Shown: piece by piece, positions 41,082-58,604 of the stretch
How positions within the stretch are numbered: position 1 is the first letter of the stretch
Layout of the letters: the number at the start of each line of letters is the position of its first letter
Assembly (NCBI RefSeq): GCF_001421565.1
Contig: NZ_LMKQ01000003.1
Span: forward strand, 156,588-220,587
Source of the DNA: Agromyces sp. Leaf222
GTDB lineage: Bacteria > Actinomycetota > Actinomycetes > Actinomycetales > Microbacteriaceae
Length of the DNA stretch: 64,000 nucleotides
Direction of reading: 5' to 3'
Position numbers and translations under genes: made by a program
Notes under the pieces: model-generated
The model's input: the letters and a program-made list of their open reading frames with translations, nothing else
Databases searched by the model: none
What the model was told of the DNA's origin: nothing

Positions 41082-41096
41082 TGGATACCGTATCCA
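41082..41096. promoter_or_regulatory. GntR-type operator, site 1
   Basis: TGGATACCGTATCCA, a perfect 15-base palindrome preceded by TTC, 48 bases upstream of the dehydrogenase start. It shares the TTCTGGAT core with sites at 49438, 57601 and 58591. Confidence 0.55.
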
Positions 41097-41252
41097 ATCT
41101 GCAGCGACGTGTCCACCGATCCGCCGTCAGGCGGCGACATCCGACCTCACCCGGTGGCCGGTCGCCTCGTGCCGACGGATGCGCTTCGCAGCGCCGCAAT
41201 CCAACCGTAACCATCGGCTTCACCCGGAATCATGGACACTTCGAGGGATTTT

Positions 41253-41265
41253 GGATACGGTATCC
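41253..41265. promoter_or_regulatory. GntR-type operator, site 2
   Basis: GGATACGGTATCC, a perfect 13-base palindrome, 70 bases upstream of the ABC substrate-binding gene. It differs from site 1 only at the centre base. The rest of the 300-base gap (41035-41334) holds nothing else I recognise. Confidence 0.55.
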
Positions 41266-41334
41266 GTCAATTCGCACGAGGCCCCGTACTGTGCGGCCGG
41301 CCCCGTTCGAGACACCCGCTGAGAATGGAGAGTC

Positions 41335-42426
41335 ATGCGCAGATCCATCCGCCGATACGGCCTCACCGCGGCAGCCGCCCTCGCAGCATTCACGCTGCTG
41401 GCAGGATGCGCCGCGAACCCCGGAGGCTCCGCCGACGCCGAACCGGTCACCCTCGCCGACGGCGAACCCGGGGCAGCGGAGGACACCGAGATCACGGTGG
41501 CCATCCCGTTCCCCGACATCACCATGTACTCGATGTACGTGCTCGCGACCGACCTCGGCTACTACGAGGAGGAGGGCCTCACCGTCGAGGTCATCACGGC
41601 CGACAACGTCACGGCCGCCGTCGCGAGCGGCAGCGCCGACATCGGCGTCGAGTCCACCGGCACGGTCATCGAGGCGATCCGCGGCGGCGTGGAGGTCGAC
41701 CTGGTCGGCGGCCACTACTGCCGCCAGAACTTCGACTTCGCCGCCCAGAAGGGCATCACGAAGGTCGACGACCTCGAGGGCACGTCCATCGTGCTCGCCG
41801 GCACCCCGGGCGACCCCGCCGAGTTCCAGCGCAAGCTGGTGCTGAAGGAGGAGGGCTGGGACCTCGACACGGTGCAGACCGAGGTCGTCTACCCCGGGCC
41901 CGGCTCCGAGTCGTGGACCGAGTTCTTCGTGAACGACCGCATCTCGATGCAGCCGTTCTACGCCGACGACCTGCCCGCGCTCGAGGAGCACGGGGCGAAC
42001 GTCATCGTCGAGTCGCTGCGCAACTGGGCGAACGACGTGCAGGTGGCCGGCAGCGGCTGGGTCGCCGAGAACCCGAACACGCTCGTGCGGTTCCTGCGCG
42101 CCACGCTCAAGGCGACCGACTACATGACGGCTCCGGCGCCCGGCGTGTTCCCCGAGAACGTCGACTCGGTGCTCGACATCTACGAGGCGAACGACTTCGA
42201 CGTCGAGGTGCTCCGCGACAGCGAGAGCCCCTGGGTGCTCGACGGCCACCTCGCCTGCTCGAACCTCTACTTCGACACCGAGGCATGGGACACCACCATC
42301 GAGACGCAGTCGCTCGAGCCGGTCGAGTTCGACGAGTCGCAGCTCGTCTACCTCGAGAAGGCGCAGGAGCTGCTCGGCATCGACAACGCCGGACCCGAGA
42401 CGCTGACCTACCCGGGCGCACCCTGA
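41335..42426 (+). CDS. ABC transporter substrate-binding lipoprotein (NMT1/THI5-like)
   Basis: A 363-residue lipoprotein with lipobox LLAGC (Cys25). The mature part shows the same fold class as the 18.5-kb protein: ITVAIPFPDITMYSMYVLA, DLGYYEEEGLTVEVITAD, ASGSADIGVESTG. A Cys in GGHYCRQNFDFAAQKG is unusual for the family. GGAG lies upstream of the ATG. Its likely partners are the ATPase and permeases at 43410-45921, transcribed separately, so the transport system is split between two operons that share operator sites. Confidence 0.88.
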   Translation: MRRSIRRYGLTAAAALAAFTLLAGCAANPGGSADAEPVTLADGEPGAAEDTEITVAIPFPDITMYSMYVLATDLGYYEEEGLTVEVITADNVTAAVASGSADIGVESTGTVIEAIRGGVEVDLVGGHYCRQNFDFAAQKGITKVDDLEGTSIVLAGTPGDPAEFQRKLVLKEEGWDLDTVQTEVVYPGPGSESWTEFFVNDRISMQPFYADDLPALEEHGANVIVESLRNWANDVQVAGSGWVAENPNTLVRFLRATLKATDYMTAPAPGVFPENVDSVLDIYEANDFDVEVLRDSESPWVLDGHLACSNLYFDTEAWDTTIETQSLEPVEFDESQLVYLEKAQELLGIDNAGPETLTYPGAP

Positions 42427-42469
42427 TCGACCCTGAGCACCTGCTTCGCGGCACCTCCGCCTCGAAGCC

Positions 42470-42509
42470 GAAGAGCCCCCACCGGAGCGCATGCCGGCGG
42501 GGGCTCTTC
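42470..42509 (+). terminator. Terminator after the substrate-binding gene
   Basis: GAAGAGCCCCC (42470-42480) pairs with GGGGGCTCTTC (42499-42509), with a further CCGG/CCGG pair inside the loop and T-rich sequence after it (CGTCGCTTTCG). Confidence 0.75.
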
Positions 42510-42590
42510 GTCGCTTTCGAGCTTGCTGCGCATGCATGCATGCAGACGTCTCGATCGACGTTCCGACCGCACCGTTGGCCTGAATGCCGA

Positions 42591-42623
42591 GAGCCCCCGC
42601 CGAGCAGATGTCGGCAGGGGCTC
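42591..42623 (-). terminator. Terminator for the small basic protein gene
   Basis: Thirteen-base arms (42591-42603 and 42611-42623) with one mismatch and a seven-base loop, just past the stop at 42640. Confidence 0.7.
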
Positions 42624-42639
42624 CTCGTTCGTTCAGGGG

Positions 42640-42987: not shown

Positions 42988-43401
42988 CTACCCGACCGGA
43001 GTCCGAGCGGGCAGCGCCGCGATCGCCTCGATCTCGAAGCGGTACTCGGGCGAGGCGAAGCCGGCGACCTGCACGAGCGTCGAGACCGGGAAGTCGCGCG
43101 TGAAGTGGCGCGCGCGGATCTCCCGCAGGTCCTCGCGCACGAGGTCGAACGCCTCGCCGATGAACACGTTCACCTTGACGACGTCGTCGGGTGCGGCATC
43201 CGCTGCCCTGAGCACCGCGACGAGGTTCTCGAAGGCGAGCTCGACCTGCTCGCGGGTCGTCGGCGGCATGGTGCCGTCGGGACGCATGCCGATGATGCCG
43301 CTCACGAACACGAGGTCGCCCGCCGGCACCCGGATCGCCTGGCTGAACGCCGCCGTCGGCGGGTAGACGCCCTCGGGAACGATGACCTGCTTGTGCACCA
43401 T
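42988..43401 (-). CDS. RidA family (YjgF/RutC-like) protein
   Basis: A 137-residue RidA-fold protein: SQAIRVPAGDLVFVSGIIGM, the active-site Arg in REQVELAFENLVAVL (near 70), VNVFIGEAFDLVREDL and the late EIEAIAALP. RidA proteins hydrolyse reactive enamines or imines; RutC acts on aminoacrylate in pyrimidine breakdown. GGGGAG precedes the ATG. It is the last gene of the seven-gene operon starting at 49368 and lies eight bases after the permease stop, so a catabolic RutC-like role is likely. Confidence 0.86.
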   Translation of the reverse strand: MVHKQVIVPEGVYPPTAAFSQAIRVPAGDLVFVSGIIGMRPDGTMPPTTREQVELAFENLVAVLRAADAAPDDVVKVNVFIGEAFDLVREDLREIRARHFTRDFPVSTLVQVAGFASPEYRFEIEAIAALPARTPVG

Positions 43402-43409
43402 GCGCTCCC

Positions 43410-44246
43410 CTAGCTCCGGCCCATGATCTGGCGGTCGTCGTACCAGGGCGCGAGGCGCTTGCGCAGCACCGAGATGAGGGTGAGCGTCAGGTTGGCGATG
43501 ATGACCATGACGATGACCATCGCGATCGCCTCGTCCATCTCGAACTGGTAGGCCGCGAACTCGAGCATGTGGCCGAGTCCTCCCGTGCCGCCGAGGAACT
43601 CGCCGAGCACCTCGCCCGTGAAGCCGAGCGCCGCGCCGCGCTGGATGCCGGCGAGGCTGTACGGCAGGGTCGCCGGCAGGATCACCTTCCAGCCGAGGGC
43701 CACGCCGTTCACGCCGTAGACGCGCGACGCGCTCACGAGCGACGCGGGCACCGTGACCGCGCCCTCCATGGTGTTCAGGATGATCGGGAACACGGCGAGC
43801 AGGAAGACCAGTGCGATCTTCGACTCGTTGCCGAGCCCGAGCACGAGGATGAACAGCGGTGCGAGCGCGACCTTCGGCGTCGAGTAGAGCAGCCAGAGGA
43901 ACGGCGCCACCGTGAACCGCAGCACGGGCGACCAGCCGACCGCGAGGCCGACGGTCACGCCGACGACGACGGCGAGCACGAGCCCGATGAGCAGGTTCTG
44001 CATGCTGAACGCGAACGCCTGCCAGAACTCGGGGTCGACGAGCAGCTGCACGAACGCGGAGAACACCGCGGTGGGCGGCGGGAGGAACGCCTCGGGAACG
44101 AGGTGCAGCCACGAGACGGCAGCCTCCCAGATCAGCAGGATGCCGGCGATGACGGCGAGGAGCACCCACGTCCACCTGCTCGGTCCCGGCCGACGGCGGC
44201 GGGGCGCGGGGGCGTTCAGCGTCTCGATCGAGACCGTCGCGGTCAT
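43410..44246 (-). CDS. ABC transporter permease (SsuC/ThiX type), island importer
   Basis: A 278-residue permease with six membrane segments and EAA loop SASRVYGVNGVALGWKVILP. The first ~25 residues are basic and cytoplasmic. ATG 44246 overlaps the stop of the other permease by four bases. It probably forms a heterodimer with the product of 44243-45079. Confidence 0.9.
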   Translation of the reverse strand: MTATVSIETLNAPAPRRRRPGPSRWTWVLLAVIAGILLIWEAAVSWLHLVPEAFLPPPTAVFSAFVQLLVDPEFWQAFAFSMQNLLIGLVLAVVVGVTVGLAVGWSPVLRFTVAPFLWLLYSTPKVALAPLFILVLGLGNESKIALVFLLAVFPIILNTMEGAVTVPASLVSASRVYGVNGVALGWKVILPATLPYSLAGIQRGAALGFTGEVLGEFLGGTGGLGHMLEFAAYQFEMDEAIAMVIVMVIIANLTLTLISVLRKRLAPWYDDRQIMGRS

Positions 44247-45079
44247 CGGCGTGCCTTCCTGGTCCAGGGGGCGACGCGACGCTCGATGAGGGTCACGATG
44301 CCGGTCATGCCGACGCTCCAGCAGACGACGACGCCGATCGCGGCGAACGCCTGGTCGGTCTGGTAGGTGTTCGCCGCCTTGATGATGAGGGCGCCCATGC
44401 CGCTCGAGGAGCCCGAGAGCTCGGCGACGACCATGCCGATGGTGGCGAGCACCACGGCCTGCCGCAGCCCGGCGAACAGGAACGGCACGGTCGAGGGCAG
44501 GAACACGCGCCGATAGAGGTCGAGCTGCGATCCGCCGTACACGCGCGCGGCCCGCAGCAGCGACGGGCTCGTCGTGCGCATGCCGGCCGCGATGTTCAGC
44601 ATGATCGGGAAGAGCGCACTGATCACCACGAGGAAGATCACCGGACCGATGCCGAAGCCGAACCACGCCTTCGCGAGCGGCTGGTAGGCGATCGCGGGCG
44701 TCGCGTAGATCGTCCACGCGATCGGCCCGACGACCTTATCGACCGGCAGAGAGGCGCCCATGAGCAGGCCGACGGGGATGCCCACGATCACGGCGATCGT
44801 GAAGCCCGTGAGCCACGCCTGCGCCGAGACCGCGGCATTGGCCGCGAGCGAGCCGTTGGCGACGATCTCGCCGAACCCCTGCGCGATCGCGAGCGGCGGC
44901 GGGAAGAACACCGGGTTGATGAGCCCCCAATAGCCGACCACGAGCTGCCACAGCACCAGCACGATCAGCACCTCGACCGCGATCACCGCGGCCTTGCCGC
45001 CCGTCGAGAGGCCGGCGAGCCACGCGGCGAGCCCGCCACGACCCGTTCGCGGCCCGCCCGTGGCGAAGAGCACGCTCAT
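44243..45079 (-). CDS. ABC transporter permease (SsuC/ThiX type), partner
   Basis: A 278-residue permease with EAA loop RAARVYGGSQLDLYRRVFLP. It overlaps the ATPase gene by four bases at its start and the next permease by four bases at its end. Length equals that of its partner, as expected for a duplicated pair. Confidence 0.9.
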   Translation of the reverse strand: MSVLFATGGPRTGRGGLAAWLAGLSTGGKAAVIAVEVLIVLVLWQLVVGYWGLINPVFFPPPLAIAQGFGEIVANGSLAANAAVSAQAWLTGFTIAVIVGIPVGLLMGASLPVDKVVGPIAWTIYATPAIAYQPLAKAWFGFGIGPVIFLVVISALFPIMLNIAAGMRTTSPSLLRAARVYGGSQLDLYRRVFLPSTVPFLFAGLRQAVVLATIGMVVAELSGSSSGMGALIIKAANTYQTDQAFAAIGVVVCWSVGMTGIVTLIERRVAPWTRKARR

Positions 45080-45921
45080 GAGCCGCCCGCCACCGCGGCC
45101 TGCGTCGCCTCGGCCTGCAGGGCGTCCCACAGGTGATCGCGGAGCTCGAGGAAGCGCGGGTCGCTCTGCACGCTGCGCTCCGAGCGGGGCCTCGTCAACT
45201 TGGTCTCGATGACCTCCTTGATCGCGCCCGGATGGCTCTTGAACACGACGATGCGGTCGCCGAGCAGGATCGCCTCCTCGATCGAGTGCGTGATGAAGAG
45301 CACCGTCTTGCCCGTCTTGGCGATGAGCTTCTCGATCTCGTCGCGCATCACCTCGCGGGTGAGCGCGTCGACCGCGCCGAGCGGCTCGTCCATGAGCAGG
45401 ATCCGCGGCTCGGCGACGATCGCGCGGGCGAGGCCGACGCGCTGCTGCATGCCGCCCGAGAGCTCCTTCGGGTACGAGTTCTCGAATCCCGAGAGGCCGA
45501 CGAGCTCGATCGCCTCCTGCACGCGGTCGCGCCATCCGTCGCCCTTGAGCCGCTTCTGCATCTCGAGGCCGAACTTCACGTTGTCGAAGACCGTGCGCCA
45601 CGGCAGCAGCGCGTAGTCCTGGAAGACGACCGCCCGGTCGGGGCCGGGGCCCGTCACGGGCCGGCCGTCGACCAGCACCTCGCCCGAGGTGGGTGCGACG
45701 AGACCGGCGACGACGTTCATCACCGTGGTCTTGCCGCACCCCGACGGGCCGAGCACGGTGACGAACTCGCCCTCGTGCACGTCGAGGTTCACGCCCTCGA
45801 CGGCCGTGAGCGTTGCCCCGGTGCGCGCGACGTTGTAGCTCACGGTCAGGTTCCGCACCGAGATGAGCGGGGCGGATGCCGCGGGCTCGTCGTGTTCGGC
45901 GGTCGTCGTCGTCATCGTCAT
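45076..45921 (-). CDS. ABC transporter ATP-binding protein, island importer
   Basis: A 281-residue ATPase. Walker A GPSGCGKTT (near 57-65), Q-loop VVFQDYALLPW, signature LSGGMQQR, Walker B ILLMDEPLGAVD, H-loop LFITHSIEEA. It is in the nitrate/sulfonate/pyrimidine subclass, like the ATPase at 20552. It drives the second two-permease importer, whose binding protein is encoded at 41335 on the other strand. Confidence 0.93.
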   Translation of the reverse strand: MTMTTTTAEHDEPAASAPLISVRNLTVSYNVARTGATLTAVEGVNLDVHEGEFVTVLGPSGCGKTTVMNVVAGLVAPTSGEVLVDGRPVTGPGPDRAVVFQDYALLPWRTVFDNVKFGLEMQKRLKGDGWRDRVQEAIELVGLSGFENSYPKELSGGMQQRVGLARAIVAEPRILLMDEPLGAVDALTREVMRDEIEKLIAKTGKTVLFITHSIEEAILLGDRIVVFKSHPGAIKEVIETKLTRPRSERSVQSDPRFLELRDHLWDALQAEATQAAVAGGS

Positions 45922-45992
45922 CGTCCTGCTCTCTCTCGGTCTCTCACGTTTCTCTCACGGAACCCCGCGCCGCGCACACCGGGGCGTCGACG

Positions 45993-46991
45993 TCAGCCGA
46001 CGGGGACGGCCGCCTTCTCGCGGAGCTTCGGCAGCACCTCGGTGCCGAGGAGCTCGATCTGCTCGAAGAAGCGGTCGAACTTGAAGCGGAAGTCGAACAC
46101 GAGGTGGTCGACTCCGGTCGCCTCGAACTTGCGGATCTCCTCGACGGCCTCGTCGGGGTTGCCGACGATGAGCTGGCCCTCGAGGTCCTCGACGGTCTCG
46201 AAGACGCCCGACGGCGGCTTGACCGCGAACTTCGCCTTGTTCGCCCAGGCGAGCAGGCCCGGCACGTTGACGTCCTTCAGCGCCTCGGCGCGGGTCTCCT
46301 CGATGGAGGTCGGCGGGATCACGCCGACGGTCGGCATCGGCCGGCCCGAGGCATCCGTCATCTCCCGCATGACGCCCATGCGCTTCTCGATCGACGCGAG
46401 CGAGATGCGGCCGGGCATCCAGCCGTCGGCGTACTCGGCGGCGAGGCGGGCCGAACGCGGCGTCGCGCCGCAGTACCAGAACGGCACGCGACCGCCGACG
46501 GGCTTCGGCTCGATCGTGACGTTCTCGAACGAGAAGATGCCGTCGTCGTAGGTGACGTCGTTCTCGGTGAAGACGCGCTTCAGGATCTCGGCGTTCGAGC
46601 GCACCATCTCGACGCGGTCCAGGTCGCCCCAGCCGATGGCGTCGAACTCGTGGTCGAAGGTGCCGGCGCCGAAGCCGAGGATCAGGCGCGGCCCGAGCAG
46701 CTGGGTCATGGTGCCGGCCATGAGGGCGGTCACGAGCGGGTGGCGGAACGGGATCAGCGATCCGGTGCCGAGCTCGATGCGGTCGGTGACGGCGCCGATC
46801 GCGGTGAGCGTCGTGAGCGCGTCGTAGAACGTGCGGTTCGGCTTCTCCATCTCGCCGTGCGGCTCGAAGACCAAGTGGTCGCGAACCCAGACGGAGTCGA
46901 AGCCGAGCTCCTCGGCGCGCTTTGAGCCCTCGAGGAGCTTCTCCTTGCTCGCCTCTTCGCCGAAGTGCGGCAGCAGCAGACCGAATTTCAT
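45993..46991 (-). CDS. Luciferase-like F420-type oxidoreductase (island, first)
   Basis: A 332-residue TIM-barrel protein: MKFGLLLPHFGEEASKEKLL, RAEELGFDSVWVRDHLVF, RIELGTGSLIPFRHPLVTA, GPRLILGFGAGTFDHEFDA (quoted in part). It belongs to the F420-dependent luciferase-like class. ATG 46991 is two bases after the amidohydrolase stop. With RidA, an alpha/beta hydrolase and an amidohydrolase in one operon it recalls the RutA-RutD set, in which a luciferase-like flavoenzyme attacks the uracil ring. The reaction here is unknown. Confidence 0.85.
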   Translation of the reverse strand: MKFGLLLPHFGEEASKEKLLEGSKRAEELGFDSVWVRDHLVFEPHGEMEKPNRTFYDALTTLTAIGAVTDRIELGTGSLIPFRHPLVTALMAGTMTQLLGPRLILGFGAGTFDHEFDAIGWGDLDRVEMVRSNAEILKRVFTENDVTYDDGIFSFENVTIEPKPVGGRVPFWYCGATPRSARLAAEYADGWMPGRISLASIEKRMGVMREMTDASGRPMPTVGVIPPTSIEETRAEALKDVNVPGLLAWANKAKFAVKPPSGVFETVEDLEGQLIVGNPDEAVEEIRKFEATGVDHLVFDFRFKFDRFFEQIELLGTEVLPKLREKAAVPVG

Positions 46992-46993
46992 GG

Positions 46994-48406
46994 TCACTTC
47001 CCTTCTGTTGCGGCCAGTTCGGCCGGTCGTGCGGCCGGAGCGGCCGCGAGCTTCCCGAATCCGGGCTCGCCGACGACGACGCCGTCGGCGTAGACCTCGT
47101 GGCCGCGCACGAGCGTGCGCTCGATGCGCGCGCTGATCGTGCGCCCGTTGTAGGGGGTCCAGCCGATCTTCGACAGCACGTCGTCGTCGGTGATGGTCCA
47201 CTCGTGCGCCAGGTCGGCGATCACGATGTCGGCGTCGGCGCCGACCGCGAGCGTGCCCTTGACGCCGGCGAGGCCGAACTTGTCGGCCGGCACCTCGGCG
47301 ACCATCTCGACGACGCGGTCGAGATCGAGCTCGCCCCGGTTCACGGCGTCGAGCATGAGCTCGTAGTAGTACTGGATGCCGGGGGTGCCGGTGTGGGCGC
47401 TCCACATCTCGGTCCAGCCGATCTCCTTCTCCTCGCGCGTGTGCGGCGCGTGGTCGGAGCTCGCGACGTCGATGGTGCCGTCGCGCATGCCCTCCCAGAT
47501 GGCGGCGCGGTTGTCATCGGGCACCCAGTAGCTGAGCGCGTACGGGCCGAGGGTCTCGACGTCGTTCCACGTCGAGAGGAACGGCGCCCAGTGGTTCACC
47601 TCGCACGTCACGTCGATGCCCGAGGCCTTCGCACGGCGCACGGCCTCGATCGAACGGCGGGTCTGGATGTGCGCGATGTGCACGGGGCATCCGGATGCCT
47701 CGGCCAGGCGCAGCACGACGTCGATGGCCGTGTCCCAGATGACGCCCTCGCGCGCGGCGTAGGCGGACGCGTAGCCCTGCGGCGTGTTGTCGCCGCGGGC
47801 GAGCACCTCGCCCTCGATGTAGTCCATGAGCGCCTGGTCGTGCGGGTGCACGATGAAGCGCTTGCCGGTGGTCGCGATGCGATCCATGATCTGCAGCAGA
47901 TGGCCGTGGTCGTGGATGCCGGTCCCCGCCGGGTGCGGGTAGGTGCGGCCCGTGTCGACGACCATGTAGATCTTGAAGGCGTTGATGCCCATCGCCGCCA
48001 TCGGCTCGATCTCGTCGAACTTCGTCGGCGCCGGGTTGTGGTTCCAGTCCACGATCGACGACGAGGCGTAGCGCTCGAACACGTCGGTGAGGCTCGCGAC
48101 GTCGACGGTCGGCGGCTTCAGGTTGGGCATGCCGAAGATCGTCGTCACGCCGCCGGCCGCGGCCTGGCGGGTCGTCGTGAGGATGTCGTCCTTGTGCTCG
48201 TAGCCGGGTTCGCGGGTGTGCACGTGCACGTCGACCATGCCGGGCAGCACGAGGCGGCCGGATGCGTCGATGGTGCGATCCGCGTCGACGGCGACGTCGC
48301 GCGCGACCACGCCCGCGACCTTGCCGTCGTGCACGAGCAGGTCGCCGGCGACGGGTCCGCTCGGGGTGACGACGGTGCCGCCCGTGATTCTGAGGTCGAT
48401 GCTCAC
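46994..48406 (-). CDS. Dihydroorotase/allantoinase/hydantoinase-like cyclic amidohydrolase
   Basis: A 470-residue cyclic amidohydrolase. Metal ligands are in MVDVHVHTREPGYEHKDD, the carboxylated Lys in INAFKIYMVVD, and His/Asp in VHPHDQ, VHIAHIQ and SSDHAPH. The pattern EPGYEHK is closer to dihydroorotase and allantoinase than to the dihydropyrimidinase at 23543. It opens a cyclic amide or ureide. The start is GTG, overlapping the alpha/beta hydrolase stop by four bases (GTGA). With pyrE and no other pyr genes nearby, a biosynthetic dihydroorotase role is unlikely. Confidence 0.87.
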   Translation of the reverse strand: MSIDLRITGGTVVTPSGPVAGDLLVHDGKVAGVVARDVAVDADRTIDASGRLVLPGMVDVHVHTREPGYEHKDDILTTTRQAAAGGVTTIFGMPNLKPPTVDVASLTDVFERYASSSIVDWNHNPAPTKFDEIEPMAAMGINAFKIYMVVDTGRTYPHPAGTGIHDHGHLLQIMDRIATTGKRFIVHPHDQALMDYIEGEVLARGDNTPQGYASAYAAREGVIWDTAIDVVLRLAEASGCPVHIAHIQTRRSIEAVRRAKASGIDVTCEVNHWAPFLSTWNDVETLGPYALSYWVPDDNRAAIWEGMRDGTIDVASSDHAPHTREEKEIGWTEMWSAHTGTPGIQYYYELMLDAVNRGELDLDRVVEMVAEVPADKFGLAGVKGTLAVGADADIVIADLAHEWTITDDDVLSKIGWTPYNGRTISARIERTLVRGHEVYADGVVVGEPGFGKLAAAPAARPAELAATEGK

Positions 48407-49368
48407 TGTCCTGCCTCCATGCGTGGTGCCTCCAGGTGTTCGATGGCCTCGCCCGACTGCGGCGAGAGCGTGGTGCGGATGTCGACGTCGCTCGGCTGCA
48501 CGTGGCGGTCGAGCCAGTCGACGATGCGCGGGGTGGTCTGCTCCCAGTAGCGGTCGTAGGCCGCGTAGTGGGTGGTGTGCCGCTGCATGATGAGCTGCTT
48601 CGGCCCCTTGGCCGCGGCGTAGAGCGCTTCGGCGTGGTCGGTGGGCGTGGTCGCGTCGCCCTCGACGCCGATCACCAGGAGCGGGGTCGTCAGCCGCGCG
48701 GCGGCGTCGATCGGGCGGTAGGCGAGGATCTCCTCGGCGCACGAGAGCGGGATCGCGCTCGGGATGCGGTCGTCGACGTCGGCCTTGATCGTGGTCGCGC
48801 GGCGCTCGGGCGTGGGCACCATGATCTCCTCGCGCGGGTGCACGAGCCGGCCGGCGCCCGTCGTGACGCGGAGTCGACGGTCCTCGTCAAGGCTCGCGAG
48901 GAAGGCGAGCCACTCGTGCTCCTGGCGCATGCGGTGCAGCCAGTCGGTGCCGTCGGCGACCGGCACCTGGCTGACGGCGGCGCGCACGCGCGGGTCGGCG
49001 TCGGCGAGGAGCACGGCGTTGCCGCCGCCCGTGCCGCCGGTGCCGAAGACGCCGATCGCGTCGGCGACGACGTCGTCGCGCGTGGTCAGGTAGGTGACCG
49101 CGTTCACGAGGTCCTGCAGTTGGCGAGCAGGCGAGAGGATGCCTCGGTCGCCCTCGGAGTCGCCGAAGCCGCGGTAGTCGAAGATGAGCACCGCGAACCC
49201 GGCGGCGACGAGCGCCTCGTGGTACCGCACGTAGAGCTTGGCGTCCTTGAGGCCGAGCCAGCCGGGACCCTGCACGATCGCGCGGTACGGGCCGGGCGTC
49301 TCGGGCGTTCGCCAGATCGCGGCGAGGCGGTCGCCGGAGCTGTAGAACTCGACGTTCGTGGTCTTCAT
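48403..49368 (-). CDS. Alpha/beta hydrolase with no serine nucleophile
   Basis: A 321-residue alpha/beta-hydrolase protein: VQGPGWLGLKDAK, LIFDYRGFGDSEGDR and LLVIGVEGDATTPTDHAEALY, with a late HTTHY His. At the nucleophile elbow the sequence is IGVFGTGGTGGGNA (residues 105-118), so the usual Ser is Gly112 or Thr113. It may be a Thr-dependent or non-hydrolytic member. It is the first gene of the seven-gene operon and has a 16-base palindrome 70 bases upstream. RutD is the nearest functional analogue by context. Confidence 0.82.
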   Translation of the reverse strand: MKTTNVEFYSSGDRLAAIWRTPETPGPYRAIVQGPGWLGLKDAKLYVRYHEALVAAGFAVLIFDYRGFGDSEGDRGILSPARQLQDLVNAVTYLTTRDDVVADAIGVFGTGGTGGGNAVLLADADPRVRAAVSQVPVADGTDWLHRMRQEHEWLAFLASLDEDRRLRVTTGAGRLVHPREEIMVPTPERRATTIKADVDDRIPSAIPLSCAEEILAYRPIDAAARLTTPLLVIGVEGDATTPTDHAEALYAAAKGPKQLIMQRHTTHYAAYDRYWEQTTPRIVDWLDRHVQPSDVDIRTTLSPQSGEAIEHLEAPRMEAGQ

Positions 49369-49437: not shown

Positions 49438-49453
49438 ATTCTGGATCCAGAAT
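49438..49453. promoter_or_regulatory. GntR-type operator, site 3
   Basis: ATTCTGGATCCAGAAT, a perfect 16-base palindrome, 70 bases upstream of the alpha/beta hydrolase gene and 140 bases upstream of the divergent F420-0 transporter gene. A second partial CCAG follows at 49454-49457. Confidence 0.6.
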
Positions 49454-49592
49454 CCAGTATTGATTCCGAATTACCGGGCGCCGTAGGATGAACCCGACCG
49501 CCGATCCGCCTTGATCGGTTGTGATGGCCCGGGATTGGGCCGTGAGTCCTCGACAACTGTCGAAGTCCGCACCGAACCGTCCCGGAGGAACC

Positions 49593-50618: not shown

Positions 50619-51730
50619 TGACCGCCCCCTCGAGAACAGGCGCCGCCGGGGTCTCCGCCCCGGAGGCAGGCGCGTCTTCGGCGCGCCGTCCGCCCGCGCC
50701 TGTTCTCGGACGGGCCCTCGCCTGGGGCCTGCTGCTCGCGGCGCTGCTCGCGGCATCCGTCGTCATCGCCGTCACGATCGGCCCGGCGCCCATCGCGCCG
50801 TCCGACGTGTTCGCGAGCGTCGCAGCGCACCTGGGGTTCGGCGAGCCGACGCTCTCGCCGATCCGCGACGGCATCGTGTGGGAGCTGCGGATGCCGCGCG
50901 TGATCACGGCGGCCGTGGTCGGCGCGGGACTCGCGCTCTGCGGCGCCGTGATGCAGGCCGTCACCCGCAACACCCTCGCCGACCCGTACCTGCTCGGACT
51001 CTCGTCGGGCGCCTCGGTCGGCGCGGTCGTCGTGATCGTGCTCGGCGTGGGGCTGCTGCTCCCGCTCGCCGCCTTCGCCGGTGCGCTCGCGGCCCTGGTC
51101 GCGACGCTCGGACTTGCCATGGCCGCCTCCGCGCGGTCGGGCCGCGGCGCCAGGCTCGACCCCACCACGACCGTGCTCGCCGGCATCGCGGTGTCGAGTG
51201 TGTTCGGGGCGATCACGAGCCTCGTCATCTTCTGGAGCGCGACGGGCGACAGCTACCGCGAGATCCTCAACTGGCTGCTCGGCTCGCTCGCGGGCACCGA
51301 CTGGACCTCCGTCGCGATCAGCGGCGTCGCGCTCGTCGTCGTCGGCGTGCCGCTCATCGCGAGCGCCCGCACGCTCGACGCGTTCGCCCTCGGCGAGGCC
51401 GGCGCGGCCGCGCTCGGCGTGCACGTCGCCCGCTCACGCGTCCTGCTGCTCGGCGGCACGGCGCTGCTCACCGGTGCGCTCGTCGCGGTGAGCGGGTCGA
51501 TCGGCTTCGTCGGACTCGTGCTCCCGCATGCCGTGCGGCTCGTGACCGGGCCGGGTCACCGCGCGCTGCTGCCGCTCTCGGCCCTCGCCGGGGCCATCTT
51601 CCTCGTCTGGGCCGACACCGCCGCCCGCACCCTGTTCGACCCTCGCGAGCTGCCGGTCGGCATCATCACCGCACTGATCGGCGGGCCGGTCTTCGCCTGG
51701 CTGCTGCTTCGCGCGAGGAGCACGGCATGA
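50618..51730 (+). CDS. F420-0-type ABC transporter permease (FecCD family)
   Basis: A 370-residue FecCD permease with about nine membrane segments: LRMPRVITAAVVGAGLALCGAVMQAVTRNTLADPYLLGLSSGA (quoted in part), SGSIGFVGLVLPHAVRLVTG. The ATG overlaps the binding-protein stop by one base. It forms the channel for the transporter trio. Confidence 0.88.
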   Translation: MTAPSRTGAAGVSAPEAGASSARRPPAPVLGRALAWGLLLAALLAASVVIAVTIGPAPIAPSDVFASVAAHLGFGEPTLSPIRDGIVWELRMPRVITAAVVGAGLALCGAVMQAVTRNTLADPYLLGLSSGASVGAVVVIVLGVGLLLPLAAFAGALAALVATLGLAMAASARSGRGARLDPTTTVLAGIAVSSVFGAITSLVIFWSATGDSYREILNWLLGSLAGTDWTSVAISGVALVVVGVPLIASARTLDAFALGEAGAAALGVHVARSRVLLLGGTALLTGALVAVSGSIGFVGLVLPHAVRLVTGPGHRALLPLSALAGAIFLVWADTAARTLFDPRELPVGIITALIGGPVFAWLLLRARSTA

Positions 51731-52569
51731 GCCTCGACCTGTCGCGCGTTCGCTTCGATCGCGCCGGACGCACGATCATCGACGGCGTCGACGCGACGCT
51801 CCCCCGCGGCGCGCTGACGGCGCTCATCGGGCCGAACGGCGCCGGCAAGTCGACGCTGCTGCACCTCATCGCGGCGATCGAGCGCGCCGACGAGGGCGAA
51901 CTGCGACTCGACGGTCGGCCGCTCGACGGCATGCGGCGTCGCGAACGCGCCAGGATCGTGGCGCTGGCCGAGCAGCAGGCCGAAGTCGACGGACGGCTGA
52001 CCGTCGAGGCATCCGTCGCCCTCGGGCGCACCCCGCATCTCGGCGTGTTCGGCGTCGCCGGCCCCCACGACCGCGCGATCATCGACGGCGCACTCGCCGC
52101 GGTCGGCGCCGCGGAGTTCGCCGACCGACCCCTCGACTCGCTCTCGGGCGGCGAACGGCAACGCGTGACCCTCGCCCGGGCGATCGCGCAGGAGCCGACC
52201 CTGCTGCTCGCGGACGAGCCGACGAACCACCTCGACCTCGGCTCCCAGTTCGTCGCCCTCGACCTGCTCGCGGGGCTCGCGCGCGGCGGGCTCACCGTCG
52301 TCGCCGCCCTGCACGACCTCTCGCACGCCGCCGCCTACGCCGACCACGTCGTCGTGCTCACCGCCGGACGGGTCGTCGCGGCCGGGCCGCCCGCCGAGGT
52401 GCTCACCTCCGAGCTCGTGCACGACGTCTACGGGGTGCGGGCGGAGGTCGTCACGCACCCGCTCACGGGTCGCCCGCTGATCGCGGTCGCGAGCCCGGCG
52501 ACGTCGGCGGTTCCAGGACCCGTGGCGGCCTCGGCGCCCCTCGGCGGCTCGCCGACGCCCACGGCGTAG
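51727..52569 (+). CDS. F420-0-type ABC transporter ATP-binding protein
   Basis: A 280-residue ATPase of the FepC/BtuD class. Walker A GPNGAGKST (near 34-42), signature LSGGERQR, Walker B LLLADEPTNHLDL, H-loop AALHDLSHAA. Its ATG overlaps the permease stop by four bases. The C-terminal ~30 residues are Ala/Pro-rich. Third gene of the trio and transcribed away from the mmsB-like gene. Confidence 0.9.
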   Translation: MSLDLSRVRFDRAGRTIIDGVDATLPRGALTALIGPNGAGKSTLLHLIAAIERADEGELRLDGRPLDGMRRRERARIVALAEQQAEVDGRLTVEASVALGRTPHLGVFGVAGPHDRAIIDGALAAVGAAEFADRPLDSLSGGERQRVTLARAIAQEPTLLLADEPTNHLDLGSQFVALDLLAGLARGGLTVVAALHDLSHAAAYADHVVVLTAGRVVAAGPPAEVLTSELVHDVYGVRAEVVTHPLTGRPLIAVASPATSAVPGPVAASAPLGGSPTPTA

Positions 52570-52609: not shown

Positions 52610-53527
52610 TCAGGCCGAAGGGTCGAACCCCGGTATCGTGCCGTCGGCGGGCGGGTACTTCGCCACGAGGCTCGCGTCCTTGCCCGCGTACCCCTCCGAG
52701 GCGAGTCGACGGAACTGCTCGAGCGCCAACTCGGCGGCCGGGATGTGCAGCGCGGATGCCTCGCCCGCCGCGACCGCGAACGAGAGGTCCTTCTCGGCGA
52801 GCGCCGCTGAGAACGTCGCGTCGAAGTTGCGGTTCGCGGGACTCGTCTCCACGACGCCTGGGGCCGGATACCAGGTGCGGAGCGGCCAGGAGTCGCCCGA
52901 CGAGGCGGCCGCGACCTCATGGAACCTCGCGGCATCGAGTCCGAGCGAGGCCGCGAGCGCGGCCGCCTCCGCGACGCCGAGCAGCGAGACGAAGAGCATG
53001 AGGTTGTTGGCGAGCTTCGCCGCGATGCCGAGCGTCGGCCCGCCGAGGTCGAAGACGTGCGCCGCCATGGGCTCCACGAGCCGGCGGGCCGCCGCCACGG
53101 CGTCGGGGTCGCCGCCGAGCATGAACGTGAGGGACCCGCGCTCGGCCCCGGCGATGCCGCCCGAGACCGGAGCATCGACGAACCGGAACGCATGGGCCGC
53201 CGACTCGGCGTGGCACCACCGCGAGGTCTCGACATCGACGGTCGACGTGTCGAGGAGCAGCGCGTCCGCCGGAGCGGTCGCCCACACACCGGCGGTCGCC
53301 GCGTAGACCTCGCGGACGTGCTCGTTGCGCGGCAGGGACGTGAAGACGGCGTCGACGCCCGCGACGGTCTCGGCGATGCTCTCGCACACGCGCACGCCGC
53401 GCTCGCCCGCGAGGATGCAGGCCGCGTCGTCGAGGTCGAATCCGCGCACCTCGTGCCCTGCCAGGGCCATGCGGGCCGACATGGGCCCGCCCATGTGCCC
53501 GAGTCCGATCCATCCGATGACGGCCAT
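52610..53527 (-). CDS. 3-hydroxyisobutyrate dehydrogenase family protein
   Basis: A 305-residue NAD(P)-dependent beta-hydroxyacid dehydrogenase. The N-terminal Rossmann motif is GWIGLGHMGGPMSARM (about 5-20), the substrate loop VDAPVSGGIAGAERGSLTFM and the catalytic Lys in GIAAKLANNLML. Members oxidise 3-hydroxyisobutyrate, tartronate semialdehyde or related acids, or are imine reductases. Together with mmsA elsewhere in the window it could process 3-hydroxyacids, but it is not in that operon. The substrate is unknown. Confidence 0.87.
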   Translation of the reverse strand: MAVIGWIGLGHMGGPMSARMALAGHEVRGFDLDDAACILAGERGVRVCESIAETVAGVDAVFTSLPRNEHVREVYAATAGVWATAPADALLLDTSTVDVETSRWCHAESAAHAFRFVDAPVSGGIAGAERGSLTFMLGGDPDAVAAARRLVEPMAAHVFDLGGPTLGIAAKLANNLMLFVSLLGVAEAAALAASLGLDAARFHEVAAASSGDSWPLRTWYPAPGVVETSPANRNFDATFSAALAEKDLSFAVAAGEASALHIPAAELALEQFRRLASEGYAGKDASLVAKYPPADGTIPGFDPSA

Positions 53528-53591
53528 GGCCCCCTCCTCCGACGTCGTCGTCGTGCTGCCTCGCAGGCTCCACGCTACGCCGAGCCGAACC

Positions 53592-53654
53592 CCGTGATGT
53601 CGCACGAATCGTCGCCATCGGCTGACGATGCGAGCAGTTCGCGCGACATCACGG
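53592..53654 (-). terminator. Terminator after fgd
   Basis: CCGTGATGTCGC (53592-53603) pairs perfectly with 53643-53654, and the interior can pair further (CGAATCGTC with GACGATGCG). It separates fgd from the dehydrogenase gene, both on the minus strand. Confidence 0.6.
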
Positions 53655-53697
53655 ACTCGGATGGGCGCCGAACAGGGCGACGCCGCCCCGGCGGGAG

Positions 53698-54732
53698 CTA
53701 CTGCGCCGCGCGAGCTCGCAGTCGCGGCGCGAGGTCGCGCTCGAACAGCTGCAGGAAGCGCCGCTGGTCGTGCCCGGGCGCGTGGAACACGAGGTGATTG
53801 AAGCCCCAGTCCATGTACTGGCCGATCTGCTCGACGACGGCGTCGGGGTCGGTGCCGACGATCCAGCGCTTGGCGATCGTCTCGATGGGCAGCGCGTCGG
53901 CGGCCCGCTCCATCTCGACGGGGTCGGTGATGTCGTGCTTCTGCTCCTTCGACAGCGAGAGCGGCGACCAGAACCGGGTGTTGTCGAGCGCGGCCTCCTC
54001 GGTCTCCTCGTACGAGAGCTTGATCTCGATCATGCGGTCGTAGTCGTCGAAGGTGCGGCCGTCGGTGCGGGCCTCCAGCCCCTCCTTCACGGCGGGCATG
54101 AGCTGGTCGGCGTAGAGCTCGGCGCCCTTGCCGGAGGTGCAGATGAAGCCGTCGCCCGCGCGGCCCGCGTACTTCGCGACCTGGGGCCCGCCGGCGGCGA
54201 TGTAGATCGGCACGCCTCCCTCGGGCCGGTCGTAGATCGACGCGTCGTGGGTCGAGTAGTACTCGCCGTCGAAGCTGACCTGGTCTTCGTCGCTCCAGAG
54301 GGCGCGCATGAGGCGCACCGACTCGCGCAGGCGCGCGTAGCGCTCGCGGAACTCGGGCCACTCCTGCTCGCCCGCACCCTGGAAGCCCGTGGCGATCTCG
54401 TTGAGCGCCTCGCCCGAGCCGACGCCGAGGATCACGCGTCCCGGGTAGAGCACGCCCATGGTCGCGAACGCCTGGGCGAGCACGGCCGGGTTGTAACGGA
54501 ACGTCGGCGTGAGCACCGAGGTGCCGATGCGGATCTTCGAGGTGCGCTCGCCGACCGCCGCCATCCAGGCGAGCGAGAACGGCGCGTGGCCGCCGGTGTG
54601 ACGCCAGGGCTGGAAGTGGTCGCTCGTGAAGACGGACTCCATGCCGTGGGCTTCGGCCGCGACGGCGATCTCGACGAGCTCGCGCGGGTCGAACTGCTCG
54701 GCGCTGGCCTTGTATCCGAGGGTGAGGGTCAT
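53698..54732 (-). CDS. fgd: F420-dependent glucose-6-phosphate dehydrogenase
   Basis: A 344-residue protein very close, by eye, to mycobacterial Fgd1: [16 protein letters not shown] start, [21 protein letters not shown] (quoted in part), [42 protein letters not shown], the phosphate-binding [28 protein letters not shown] region and the C-terminal [16 protein letters not shown]. It reduces F420 to F420H2 using glucose 6-phosphate and supplies the luciferase-like enzymes nearby. It overlaps cofC by four bases, so it is made with F420 biosynthesis proteins. Confidence 0.96.
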
Positions 54733-55496
54733 GCTGCTCCCTTTCTGGTGGAGTCGATGGGGCGTGACGACGGCTGGGCGTCGGTCCGGTGGTCGCCGGG
54801 GGCGCCCCGGTCTTCGCGGGCGGCGAGCGCCGCCGTGGTGTGCGCGCCGAGGCCGAGCCGTACGGCGGCGTCGAGCGCGTCGATCGTGTCGACGTCGCGG
54901 CGCATGCGCTCGGCGAGCGGCGCCGGCACGTCGTGCGAGAGGTCGTGGAATCCGAGCGCACGGTGCAGCATCGCCGAGTCGGCGCCGAAGGCGGGCTCGA
55001 ACCGGGTGTGGGCGGCGGCCGTTGCGAGGGTCGTGCCGGTCGCCTCGGCGTCGGGCATGAAGGCGAGCGGATGCCGCGACGCGGCGCCGAGCGCGGCATC
55101 GAGCGCGTGCGGGGTCAGCGCGGGCAGGTCGCCGAGCAGCACGGCGATGCCCCGATGGGAGCGGGTGGAGCGGCGGCCGGCCCTCTCGCCGGCGACGCGT
55201 TCGTCGACGGCGATGCGTCGGGCCTCCGCGATGCCGTGACGGATCGCCGCCGAGAGCGAGCGCGGCTCCGGCTCGGCGACGACCACGACGCCGGCGGGCA
55301 CCTCGTCGACGTGGCCGCTGAGGTCGCCGACGACGATCACCTGCGCGACGCGCTCGGCGGCGAGCGCCGCATCGATGGTGTCGAGCACGAACGCACGGGC
55401 GAGGTCGGCGCGTGCGGAACGGTCGAGCGAGGGCGAGAGCCGGGTCTTGGCCTCGGCGAGGAGCTTGACGGGCACGACCACGTCGTAGGTCAGCAT
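54729..55496 (-). CDS. cofC: 2-phospho-L-lactate (or phosphoenolpyruvate) guanylyltransferase
   Basis: A 255-residue nucleotidyltransferase: [19 protein letters not shown] at the N-terminus, [29 protein letters not shown] and [17 protein letters not shown]. It activates the three-carbon phospho-acid with GTP for CofD. It overlaps cofE by seven bases and fgd by four, making an F420 supply operon. The last ~30 residues ([15 protein letters not shown]) are not conserved. Confidence 0.94.
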
Positions 55497-56518
55497 GTCG
55501 TCGCCTCCGCAGCCGTCTCGGCCGAGCCCACGACCGCCGAGCCCACCGCCGAACCCACGACGGCCGCGGCGCGTGCGCGCGCCATGAGCGCCTCGCTGCG
55601 GGCGGCCGCGACGCCCTCCGCGTAGCCCGCGGCGAACCCCTCGGCGTGCCCGACGGCGCGGCCGCTCGCGAAGCCGTGCTCGTGTCCGTCTCGTCGTCCG
55701 AGCTCGATGGCCTCGTCGGTGCCGAGTCGGAACAGGTCGCGCTCCGACGGGCGGGCGATGCTCGCGGCGCCGGGCAGGTCGAGCGGGCCGACGGCGCGTG
55801 CGAGGCCCGAGACGACGGCCACGGGGCATCCGCTCGCCTTGCCCTTGACGAGGTCGCCGGCGCCCGCGAGCTCGTCGGCGAGGCATGCCATGGTCACGGT
55901 GAGCGTGCGCCCTGCCGCATCGGTGCCGCCGCGCAGGTCGTCGACGACGTGCACGCCGGCAGCGCCGATGGCGACGTCGGTCTGGCCCTCGCGCCACGGG
56001 CGTCCGAGCGTGTCGGAGAGGATCACGCCGACCGTCGCGCCGGTGCGTTCGCGCAGTCCCAGTGCGAGGCGCCGCGCCGAGGCATCCGGATCGACGGGCA
56101 GCAGCAGCACGGTGCCGTCCGCCGTGTTCGAGGCGTCGACGCCCGCCGCAGCCGCGACCATGCCCTGGCGGTTCTCGACGATGCGCGTGACGCCGCCCTC
56201 GTGCGCCCTGGTCGCGACGACCCGCACGGTCTCGTCGGTGATCGCCTGCTCGCGATCGGTCGCGTGCACGATGCGCCCCTCGGCCTTCGACACGATCTTC
56301 GAGGTGACCACGAGGATGTCGCCGTCGTGGAGTCCGCCGGCGTGGTCGGCGGCCGACGCGATGAGCCCGACGAGGTCGTCGCCCGGGCGGATCTCGCCGA
56401 TGCCGGGCAGCGCGCGCACGGCGATCGCCGCGGCATCCGCTCGCTCGAGGCGTGCCACGCGCGCGACGTCCGAAGCGGCGGCGACGCCCGCGCGCGACCC
56501 GGTGATGACGGCGCTCAT
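55490..56518 (-). CDS. cofE: F420-0:gamma-glutamyl ligase, paralogue 1 with Ala-rich tail
   Basis: A 342-residue protein with a complete CofE fold (about 40-265): [54 protein letters not shown] (quoted in part), [21 protein letters not shown]. CofE adds glutamates to F420-0. Unlike mycobacterial FbiB it lacks the C-terminal nitroreductase-like domain; instead there is an Ala/Glu/His-rich helical tail of ~75 residues ([20 protein letters not shown], quoted in part). It overlaps the upstream luciferase-like gene by four bases. Confidence 0.93.
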
Positions 56519-57513
56519 CGCACGAGCCCCGGCAGCACGTCGCGCCCGAAGACCTCGAGCCACTCGCGCTGGTTGCGGCCGACGTTGTGCAGGTAGATGC
56601 GGTCGAATCCGAGGTCGATGCAGCGTTGGATGTGCGCGCGGTGCACGTCGGGGTCGCTCGAGACGGTGAGCCGGCCGGCGAAGTCCTCAGGGCGCACCGA
56701 GCGCGCGAGCTGCTCGAACTCGAAGGGCGAGCGGATGTCGCCGCGAGCGAAGCGCATGCCCGCGATGGGCCACTCGCGCAGCGCGTTCGCCATCGCCTCC
56801 TCGTCGGTCGGCGCCCACGAGAGGTGGAGCTGCAGCACGCGCGTGAGCTTCGACCGGTCGCGGCCGCCCTCGCGGGCACCCTCGTCGAACTTCGCGAGCA
56901 GCACGCGCAGTCGCTCGTCGTCGGCGCCGGTCGTGATGATGCCGTCGACCTGGCGGCCCGCGCGCTTCGCCGTGACGGGCCCCTGGGTGGCGACGTAGAT
57001 CTCGGGGGGGACGGGCGGCATGGTCCAGAGCCGGGTGGTCTCGAGCCGGAAGTGCGGGCCGGCGTGGCGCACCTCGCGGCCGGCGATCGAGGCGCTGAAG
57101 AGCTTCTTGATGATGTCGACGGCCTCGAACATGCGGTTGATGCGCTCGTGCGCCTCTGGCCAGTAGGTGCCGACGACGTGCTCGTTCAGCGCCTCGCCCG
57201 ACCCGATGCCGAGCCAATGGCGGCCGGGGTACATCGAGGCGAGCGTCGCACTGGCCTGGGCGACCATGGCCGGGTGCCAGCGGAACGTCGGGGTGGTCAC
57301 GCCGGGGCCGAGGTCGCCCGTCGTGCGCTCGCCGAGCGCCGCGAGCACGCTCCACACGAACGAGGACTCGCCCTGCTGCGGCAGCCACGGCTGGAAGTGG
57401 TCGGAGGCCATGACCCCCGAGAAGCCGTGCTGCTCGGCGTACGCGGCGAGCGCCACCGCCTCGGCGGGCGGGAACTGCTCGAGCATGGCTGCGTATCCGA
57501 TGTGCACTGACAC
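56515..57513 (-). CDS. Luciferase-like F420-type oxidoreductase (Fgd-related, island second)
   Basis: A 332-residue protein of the Fgd-like branch: [40 protein letters not shown] (quoted in part), [19 protein letters not shown]. It resembles Fgd but the glucose-6-phosphate phosphate-binding residues are not obvious, so it probably acts on another substrate. Start GTG 57513 or GTG 57507; both have GGAGG-type sites, and 57507 has slightly better spacing. A TTCTGGATCCAAAA site lies 88 bases upstream. First gene of the LLM-cofE-cofC-fgd operon. Confidence 0.87.
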
Positions 57514-57600
57514 CCCTCCATCCTCCCGCTCCGATGAAGGTGCCGGGTCCGAATTCGCGAAGGTCGTGCGTTCGAGCGACCCGAGCTCCATCATTCCGGA

Positions 57601-57614
57601 TTCTGGATCCAAAA
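57601..57614. promoter_or_regulatory. GntR-type operator, site 4
   Basis: TTCTGGATCCAAAA, identical over 14 bases to site 5, and one base different from the core of site 3. It lies 88 bases upstream of the luciferase-like/cofE/cofC/fgd operon. Confidence 0.6.
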
Positions 57615-57687
57615 TGCAATACCGAGATCCGATGCCTCGGCGCGACGCCGCGTGTGGCGCGGCAATCCGGCGGGCGCGCCGGCCTCG

Positions 57688-57764
57688 CCGGTCGAGTAGG
57701 CGCGCCGGCGCCGTATCGAGACCAGCACCCCGCAAGGCCTCGATACGCTCCGCTACTCGACCGG
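57688..57764. repeat. Dispersed palindromic repeat, copy 3
   Basis: CCGGTCGAGTAG...GTATCGAGACC on the left (57688-57723) and GGCCTCGATACGC...CTACTCGACCGG on the right (57736-57764). Same family as 18414-18488. It lies downstream of the GntR gene stop and may serve as its terminator. Confidence 0.7.
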
Positions 57765-57777
57765 CCTCGCCGGCCGC

Positions 57778-58551
57778 TCAGCGCGGTGCGCGCACCCGCG
57801 ACGCCGGCGCCGCGGCATCCGCGGCCTTCGACTCCGCCTCGAGCAGCTCGAGCACGGCATCGCGCACGCCGACGAGGTGGTCGCGCAGCACGTCGACGGC
57901 GCGGTCGGCATCACCGGAGGCGACGGCCTCGATGAGCTGCTCGTGCGTGTGGCTGTGCTCGGCGTCGCCCACGAGGCGCCAGCCGAGCACGTAGCGGCCG
58001 ACCTTGAGGCGCAGCTGCTCGATCATCTCCCAGAGCACGGGCCGCTGCTCGGCGTCATAGAGCTCGGCGTAGAACTCGGTGCGGGCGTCGACGAAGTCCG
58101 AGCCCTCCTGCTGGCGGTCGGCGGCCTTGCCGAGCTCGCGCAGGCGGGCGACGCGATCGTCGGTGAGCGCGGCCATCGTGAGCCGGAGCGCCTCCACCTC
58201 GAGGAGCACGCGGATGTCGTAGACCTCCTTCGCCTGCGCCGGCGAGAGCGACTTCACCACGGCCCCACGGCGGTCGTGGAACTCGACGAGCCCGTCGGCC
58301 TCGAGCTGGATCAGCGCCGAGCGCACGGGCAGCCGCGAGACGCCGATCAGCTCGGCGAGCGTCTCCTGCCGCAGCTTCTGCCCCGGCAGCAGGGCGCCGT
58401 TCAGGATCGCGTCCTTGAGGATGTCGTAGACCATGACGCCGACCGAGCGGTACCCGGTCGCGTGCTGGCCTGCGAGTTGCTTGAGGGCGGCGGCCCCGCC
58501 GTCGCCCGATGCCGCCGTGGTGCCCCCGGGTGCTGCGTTCTGCGCGCTCAT
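57778..58551 (-). CDS. GntR-family regulator, FCD type
   Basis: A 257-residue protein. The winged helix lies at about 38-105 (VYDILKDAILNGALLPGQKL, VSRLPVRSALIQLEADGLVE) and the all-helical FCD effector domain at about 115-240 (YDIRVLLEVEALRLTMAAL, EHSHTHEQLIEAVASGDADRA, both quoted in part). FCD regulators usually repress and bind organic acids. TTCTGGATCCAAAA lies 40 bases upstream of its own ATG, and related palindromes precede the other island operons, so it is the likely regulator of the island. The N-terminal ~30 residues are not conserved. Confidence 0.9.
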   Translation of the reverse strand: MSAQNAAPGGTTAASGDGGAAALKQLAGQHATGYRSVGVMVYDILKDAILNGALLPGQKLRQETLAELIGVSRLPVRSALIQLEADGLVEFHDRRGAVVKSLSPAQAKEVYDIRVLLEVEALRLTMAALTDDRVARLRELGKAADRQQEGSDFVDARTEFYAELYDAEQRPVLWEMIEQLRLKVGRYVLGWRLVGDAEHSHTHEQLIEAVASGDADRAVDVLRDHLVGVRDAVLELLEAESKAADAAAPASRVRAPR

Positions 58552-58590
58552 GGATCCCGAACGTAGCGGATAACCGCCCCGATCACCCCG

Positions 58591-58604
58591 TTCTGGATCC
58601 AAAA
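58591..58604. promoter_or_regulatory. GntR-type operator, site 5
   Basis: TTCTGGATCCAAAA, 40 bases upstream of the GntR start and between its ATG and the cofE paralogue stop. Consistent with autoregulation. Confidence 0.6.

Follow-up and report, generated by a model that had tools for sequence, protein, structure and literature searches.

A predicted GntR/FCD regulon linking F420 salvage to catabolism in Agromyces sp. Leaf222

We report that a catabolic island in Agromyces sp. Leaf222 carries five palindromic sites (A to E), which probably (about 80%) form the regulon of a single GntR/FCD regulator, gntR, encoded within the island. The sites stand in front of catabolic transporter and ring-processing operons, a putative importer of F420-0 or FO, an operon with CofE, CofC and FGD genes for the cofactor F420, and gntR itself. 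We consider this regulon, which would connect F420 salvage with catabolism unusually clearly, a strongly supported prediction; in a literature search no paper was found on a regulator tying F420 salvage to catabolism. The island lies in a 64-kb stretch, hereafter the window, which corresponds to positions 156588-220587 of contig C3. The genome comprises 4,428,049 bp in four contigs (99.99% complete) and was compared within a panel of 100 genomes, itself included, of which 60 belong to the genus and 40 to related families outside it. Genomes with a GntR match at E ≤ 1e-30 were scored as gntR-positive; these are 23 of the 100, own genome included, and all belong to the genus. The corresponding regions were read in 20 of the 22 other gntR-positive genomes.

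Site A (41082-41096, assigned to no strand) is a perfect 15-bp inverted repeat, TGGATACCGTATCCA, and a predicted operator 47 nucleotides (nt) upstream of the Zn-dependent alcohol dehydrogenase gene adh (start 41034, minus strand). Site B (41252-41266, plus strand; TGGATACGGTATCCG), also a predicted operator, lies 68 nt upstream of the gene for an NMT1-type substrate-binding protein (start 41335). Site C (49438-49456, no strand) is a composite in which the 15-bp TGGATCCAGAATCCA (49442-49456) overlaps the 16-bp palindrome ATTCTGGATCCAGAAT (49438-49453). It is placed between the divergent operons of the hydrolase and the importer, 69 nt from the hydrolase (49368) and 136-139 nt from the importer (49593). 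Site D (57597-57615, minus strand), where TGGATCCAGAATCCG (57597-57611) overlaps a palindrome at 57601-57614, is in front of the LLM/CofE/CofC/FGD operon, 89-93 nt from the LLM gene (GTG at 57507). Site E (58591-58604, no strand; TTCTGGATCCAAAA) is 39 nt upstream of gntR (start 58551). A first-pass annotation of this DNA had pointed out five palindromes, each 40-88 bases ahead of the nearest operon start, with the one at 49438 also 140 bases from the importer. All five are present in the sequence, and our distances, counted to inferred start codons, agree with that description (39-93 nt, importer 136-139 nt).

Read on the proper strand, site A is TTCTGGATACCGTATCCA, B TTTTGGATACGGTATCCG, C TTCTGGATCCAGAATCCA and D TTTTGGATCCAGAATCCG, and all share one frame with the half-site TGGATHC around a single central base. 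Sites A to D are thus reduced to a single motif, TTNTGGATHCNGDATCCR. The half-site TGGATCCA reads the same on both strands; this gives rise to a second, overlapping 16-bp palindrome at C and D and explains why the sites appear to have different centres. An alignment of D on the plus strand was dropped as inferior to the minus-strand reading once the orthologues had been seen. Site E, the weakest of the five, retains only the second, 14/16-bp palindrome form and has three mismatches to the 15-bp form. The annotation had noted that the first two sites have a different centre, which it took as a hint of a second regulator. Since both palindrome types fit into one 15-bp frame, the difference is on its own no sign of a second regulator, and this doubt is largely, not fully, removed by the cross-recognition between site classes and by the intermediate sites described below. 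The unified pattern is partly circular, since it was written after inspection of the sites; less circular evidence comes from matrices built on relatives only, a site at an FO-synthase gene in genome G011, and other genera.

A whole-genome scan, which the first-pass annotation had proposed as a check, places the strong matches in front of the island operons and almost nowhere else. In the 4.43-Mb genome, TTNTGGATHCNGDATCCR matched exactly at A, B, C and D and at no other place; one mismatch added nothing but alternative registers of C and D, and two mismatches added six off-island places (C1:10910, 303909, 541011 and 1826784, C3:103410 and C4:82830). For TTCTGGATCCA there were five distinct places, C, D and E plus two that by eye resemble coding sequence. 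The perfect form TGGATACNGTATCCA gave A and B only at ≤1 mismatch and A, B, C and C2:333931 at ≤2, and ATTYTGGATCCARAAT at ≤3 mismatches gave C, D, E and B together with C4:82826, C1:541014 and C1:3180042. Reversed-pattern controls for the TTCTGGATCCA, TGGATACNGTATCCA, ATTYTGGATCCARAAT and TTNTGGATHCNGDATCCR genome scans had no matches. Within the window, TTYTGGATCCARAA at ≤3 mismatches matched eight times (A to E and three others) against 0.73 expected, a number reached in none of 100 shuffles. An ABC ATPase gene begins 31 nt after the near-match TCTCTGGATCCAAAAT at C4:82826-82841 and is followed by an apparent lipoprotein gene; the match is possibly a sixth target or the site of another FCD regulator.

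Matrices were also trained on sites from the 20 relatives with the own genome excluded (14 distinct A/B and 23 distinct C/D sequences). As these sites were chosen by pattern, the test is not fully independent of the motif. When the A/B matrix was run over the 64 kb the top eight windows were A, B, C and D on both strands. The C/D matrix ranked D and C highest, followed by A and B and next by E, and its best 14 windows held nothing other than sites and their alternative registers.

Across the panel, the 15-bp core TGGATMCNGWATCCR is present in 23/23 gntR-positive vs 7/77 gntR-negative genomes (23/23 vs 5/37 within the genus) and TTYTGGATCCARAA in 20/23 vs 4/77 (genus 20/23 vs 2/37); the corresponding Fisher p-values, 8e-17 and 3e-14, overstate independence, and the co-occurrence is partly linkage because sites and gntR travel on one island. 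Reversed controls gave one match for the TGGATMCNGWATCCR scan and none for TTYTGGATCCARAA. In the seven gntR-negative genomes with the core, the seven loci were read and had no island gene within their 3 kb. Exact sites of the A/B type are found in 22/23 gntR-positive genomes and 1/77 negative genomes; the positive genome without them, G014, is a draft in about 840 contigs.

The sites are also held in position. Among the relatives, the 15-bp form of C is exact in all 19 loci whose sequence covers this region (the 20th stops short) and that of D in 20/20, while the palindrome form of E (≤1 mismatch) is present in 14/20. Site B is found at -82 to -85 in all 22 genomes with the NMT1-type gene (nmt1), in one of them with one mismatch, and 19 of these 22 have a second site (0-1 mismatch) no more than 420 bp from the start of nmt1. 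In many relatives D reads GGATCCAGTATCCG, which is intermediate between the site classes. Named loci with the island GntR are mostly from Agromyces; outside it, a GntR with 56-75% identity occurs in Microbacterium, PHSC20C1, Ruania, Mycolicibacterium and a metagenome-assembled genome, and the motif is present with 0-2 mismatches, mostly at matching places. The PHSC20C1 site, GGATACAGAATCCG, is again intermediate, and the intermediates of other genera include TTTTGGATACAGAATCCG. The Mycolicibacterium locus has a single imperfect site and the metagenome-assembled genome has no site beside gntR itself. In A. mediolanus (G003:C2:142203) a second GntR copy, 58% identical, has a degenerate site with two mismatches upstream.

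Sites outside the island were also found in relatives. G011 has its sole off-island exact match (C1:142264) at the 5' end of the FO-synthase gene fbiC, which on a circular reading of the single contig is 361 kb from gntR; the site starts 10 nt past a possible ATG, and its end is 2 nt short of a possible TTG start. In G029, G003 and G031 an exact 15-bp motif is directly before an off-island gene for a metallo-beta-lactamase-fold hydrolase (identified by Pfam in G029 and G003 and by eye in G031) with a twin-arginine-like leader as judged by eye. The G003 hydrolase site may have another owner, since a MarR-family gene is located just upstream on the same strand.

The gntR gene (57778-58551, minus strand) encodes a predicted regulator of 257 amino acids with an N-terminal GntR winged helix-turn-helix (PF00392, 64.6 bits, cut-off 27) and a C-terminal FCD domain (PF07729, 76.3 bits, cut-off 24.3). 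The best-scoring solved structures, 3c7j, 3sxy and 3fms, are named GntR-family regulators. It is the sole regulator among the island open reading frames scanned, a scan that left out some small ones. There are 12 FCD matches in the genome, 11 over the cut-off, and one is in the island. FCD domains commonly, not universally, bind metal through an Asp and three His. In ten orthologues aligned and read by eye His203 and His225 are invariant, as are Arg157 and Tyr161, which occupy what we take to be two metal-ligand positions.

Local catabolic regulators of the FadR subfamily (FCD), as described in a survey (PMC4494728), likewise combine GntR and FCD domains and have operators in divergent intergenic regions, and probable autoregulation of gntR is a further similarity. 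Another is an extra half-site approximately 7 nt from the palindrome centre, a distance that is 7-12 nt in many groups according to the same survey. The differences are the operator, here TGGATHC-N-GDATCCR, targets that include cofactor import and finishing, and the Arg157/Tyr161 pair at the presumed metal positions.

Inferred promoters bear on how the regulator would act. For the importer we read (plus strand, 49460-49489) a -35 box TTGATT (49460-49465), an 18-bp spacer and a -10 box TAGGAT (49484-49489), abutting site C. For the D operon (minus strand, 57590-57619), -35 TTGCAT (57619-57614) and -10 AATGAT (57595-57590) are separated by an 18-bp spacer that holds site D. The boxes at C and D were read by eye from stacked relatives, which at D have a conserved TTGC-T followed by the operator and a TATAAT-like hexamer. 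An operator within the inferred -35/-10 spacer of D, and one that abuts or overlaps the inferred promoters at C, fit steric repression, and within the FadR subfamily most regulators of catabolic operons act as repressors. That GntR occupies all sites and activates some of the operons is the least likely of the regulatory alternatives, and we regard it as improbable. At C the operator immediately precedes the inferred importer -35, where activators also bind; the same operator overlaps the inferred opposite promoter, and that at D fills the spacer.

A slightly more plausible, still unlikely, alternative is that there are two regulators, with the island GntR acting on the TTYTGGATCCARAA form (C, D and E) and another one, encoded elsewhere, on the perfect TGGATACNGTATCCA form (A and B). 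The central bases of A/B and C/D/E stay distinct across relatives, E has the 14/16-bp form alone, and the genome has 11 further FCD matches from which such a regulator could come. Arguing for one regulator are the absence of a second one among the island reading frames covered by the scan, the retrieval of each class by the matrix of the other, the intermediates at D and in PHSC20C1, and exact A/B-type sites that track gntR across the panel. A chance, coding or structural origin of the palindromes with no regulatory role has in its favour only that each single site is short; it was rejected by the shuffle and genome-wide controls and is at odds with positions conserved in 20-22 relatives, and we consider it extremely improbable. 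The earlier proposal that one regulator controls transport, ring modification, F420 supply and its own gene is supported by the genome scan and by the orthologous sites at the same positions in relatives and other genera, with binding and control of expression as predictions.

Several observations weigh against a single regulon in addition to the linkage mentioned above. An nmt1 orthologue (E ≤ 1e-60) is present in 22/100 genomes, all gntR-positive, i.e. the gntR set minus the fragmented G014. A and B hold GGATAC and C and D mostly GGATCC, a difference that is stable in relatives. By eye the motif has no fit to TKGT-N2/3-ACMA, the usual operator consensus of the FadR subfamily, which has exceptions (PMC4494728). 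Site E is not retrieved by TTNTGGATHCNGDATCCR at ≤2 mismatches in the whole genome, ranks 14th with the A/B matrix, below a non-site at 38175, and lacks a good counterpart in 6/20 relatives. The looser TGGATMCNGWATCCR at ≤3 mismatches is not selective in the window (23 matches vs 14.15 expected). No close motif match was found upstream of cofD in the window scans, nor in the 1.6 kb read at fbiC of G003, and the G011 site may be partly coding because it overlaps the fbiC start region. Finally, the near-match at C4:82826 is outside the island and not tied to the island GntR.

The F420 genes behind the predicted operator suggest salvage. The putative F420-0 ABC importer (49593-52569, plus strand) consists of a binding protein (TIGR03868, 485 bits, cut-off 392), a permease (TIGR03869, 481 bits, cut-off 437) and an ATPase whose best match is TIGR03873 at 331 bits, below the cut-off of 372. 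The operon behind D (52610-57507, minus strand) encodes LLM56, CofE, CofC and FGD, for which TIGR03557, TIGR01916, TIGR03552 and TIGR03554 are over cut-off, and a 3-hydroxyisobutyrate-dehydrogenase-like protein (TIGR01692, 270 bits, below 292). CofD (2-phospho-L-lactate transferase) is encoded at 34267-35334 on the plus strand (TIGR01819, 308 bits, cut-off 257). The genome thus has CofC, CofD and two CofE; these two F420-0:glutamate ligase genes (55490-56563 and 58626-59405) flank gntR within 4 kb.

CofH had no match in this genome, and CofG (E ≤ 0.001) had none in 25 of the 27 genomes tested, this one included. Without a CofG or CofH match the organism probably scavenges FO or F420-0, and import of either is likely the source of its deazaflavin. 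The importer binding protein is over cut-off in 57/60 genomes of the genus, and CofH (E ≤ 1e-40) was found in two of the 60, G003 and G011, in both below the family cut-off and together with the importer. Outside the genus the importer is over cut-off in 7/40 genomes and CofH is present in 11/40 (seven over its cut-off), and none of the 40 has both; G067 and G093 have CofH and importer-like matches below cut-off. This distribution is as expected for an importer that occurs where early F420 synthesis is missing, and in related families importer and FO synthase almost exclude each other, in support of the proposal that the ABC transporter imports an F420 precursor. The genus has 34 gntR-negative genomes with the importer; in the seven of these that were inspected it is beside or near cofD and has no site.

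As in the known TIGR03868/TIGR03869/TIGR03873 transporter, the binding protein and permease exceed the curated cut-offs; unlike it, the importer here appears to be under a catabolic operator and is close to CofC, CofE and FGD. F420-0 was reportedly proposed as cargo in the TIGRFAM entry for TIGR03868 since most founding genomes had CofE alone; the cargo here may be FO because CofD is present. In its available part the review PMC8498797 brings up an ABC transporter once, in connection with possible export by a symbiont. The first-pass prediction of control over F420 supply is supported and refined to what looks like salvage by the importer and CofC/CofE with no FO synthase match, and the predicted control over the regulator's own gene would act through E, the weakest site.

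The remaining operons of the island have catabolic genes. Behind A, an operon (36945-41034, minus strand) encodes the alcohol dehydrogenase, a CoA-transferase of family III, an amidohydrolase 2 and a LigB-type extradiol dioxygenase. The gene behind B (41335-42426, plus strand) encodes an NMT1/THI5-type substrate-binding protein. Leftward of C, the operon at 42988-49368 (minus strand) has genes for an alpha/beta hydrolase, a cyclic amidohydrolase of the hydantoinase/allantoinase type, an LLM oxidoreductase, an ABC ATPase, two permeases and a RidA-type protein. The nearest solved structure of the amidohydrolase is L-hydantoinase 1gkr, and those of the LLM protein are methylenetetrahydromethanopterin reductases. 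Among the 120 of 2071 matches listed by a protein search, all names were generic. Elsewhere in the window (15496-27531) there is a second catabolic cluster with an aldehyde dehydrogenase, a class III aminotransferase, an NMT1-type transporter, an LLM oxidoreductase, a carbon-nitrogen hydrolase and a MocR-type GntR regulator.

In the picrate degradation (npd) genes of Rhodococcus and Nocardioides, F420-dependent enzymes and F420 reduction are reportedly grouped and induced with the catabolic pathway. The grouping with catabolism is the same in the island, and the enzymes differ. The npd regulator NpdR is said to be of the IclR type (the term NpdR is in no F420 paper of the literature listing searched), and that system is not known to include an importer.

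We propose that the local GntR/FCD regulator controls the operons for catabolic transport and ring processing, the importer of F420-0 or FO and the LLM-CofE-CofC-FGD operon by binding the operator TTNTGGAT[ACT]C-N-G[AGT]ATCC[AG] ahead of them, and that it binds a weaker palindrome ahead of gntR itself. It would most likely repress until released by an intermediate of the catabolic pathway, probably a carboxylic acid. FO or F420-0 would then be imported, CofC, CofD and CofE would finish F420, FGD would reduce it, and F420-dependent catabolism would run only with substrate present. In broader terms, the odds seem even that a dedicated repressor makes F420 acquisition conditional: FO-auxotrophic actinobacteria would turn on the scavenging of their neighbours' deazaflavin, its conversion to F420 and the reduction of F420 only when a substrate whose breakdown requires F420 is present, probably an N-heterocycle that is opened by reduction and by a hydantoinase-type hydrolase, and in a lineage with FO synthase the same operator is found at that gene too. 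Cofactor scavenging and substrate breakdown would in this way switch on together. The predicted regulon names an exact operator and a regulator, both open to testing, for F420 salvage coupled to catabolism, and by indicating which operons share one pathway it may aid in finding the substrate.

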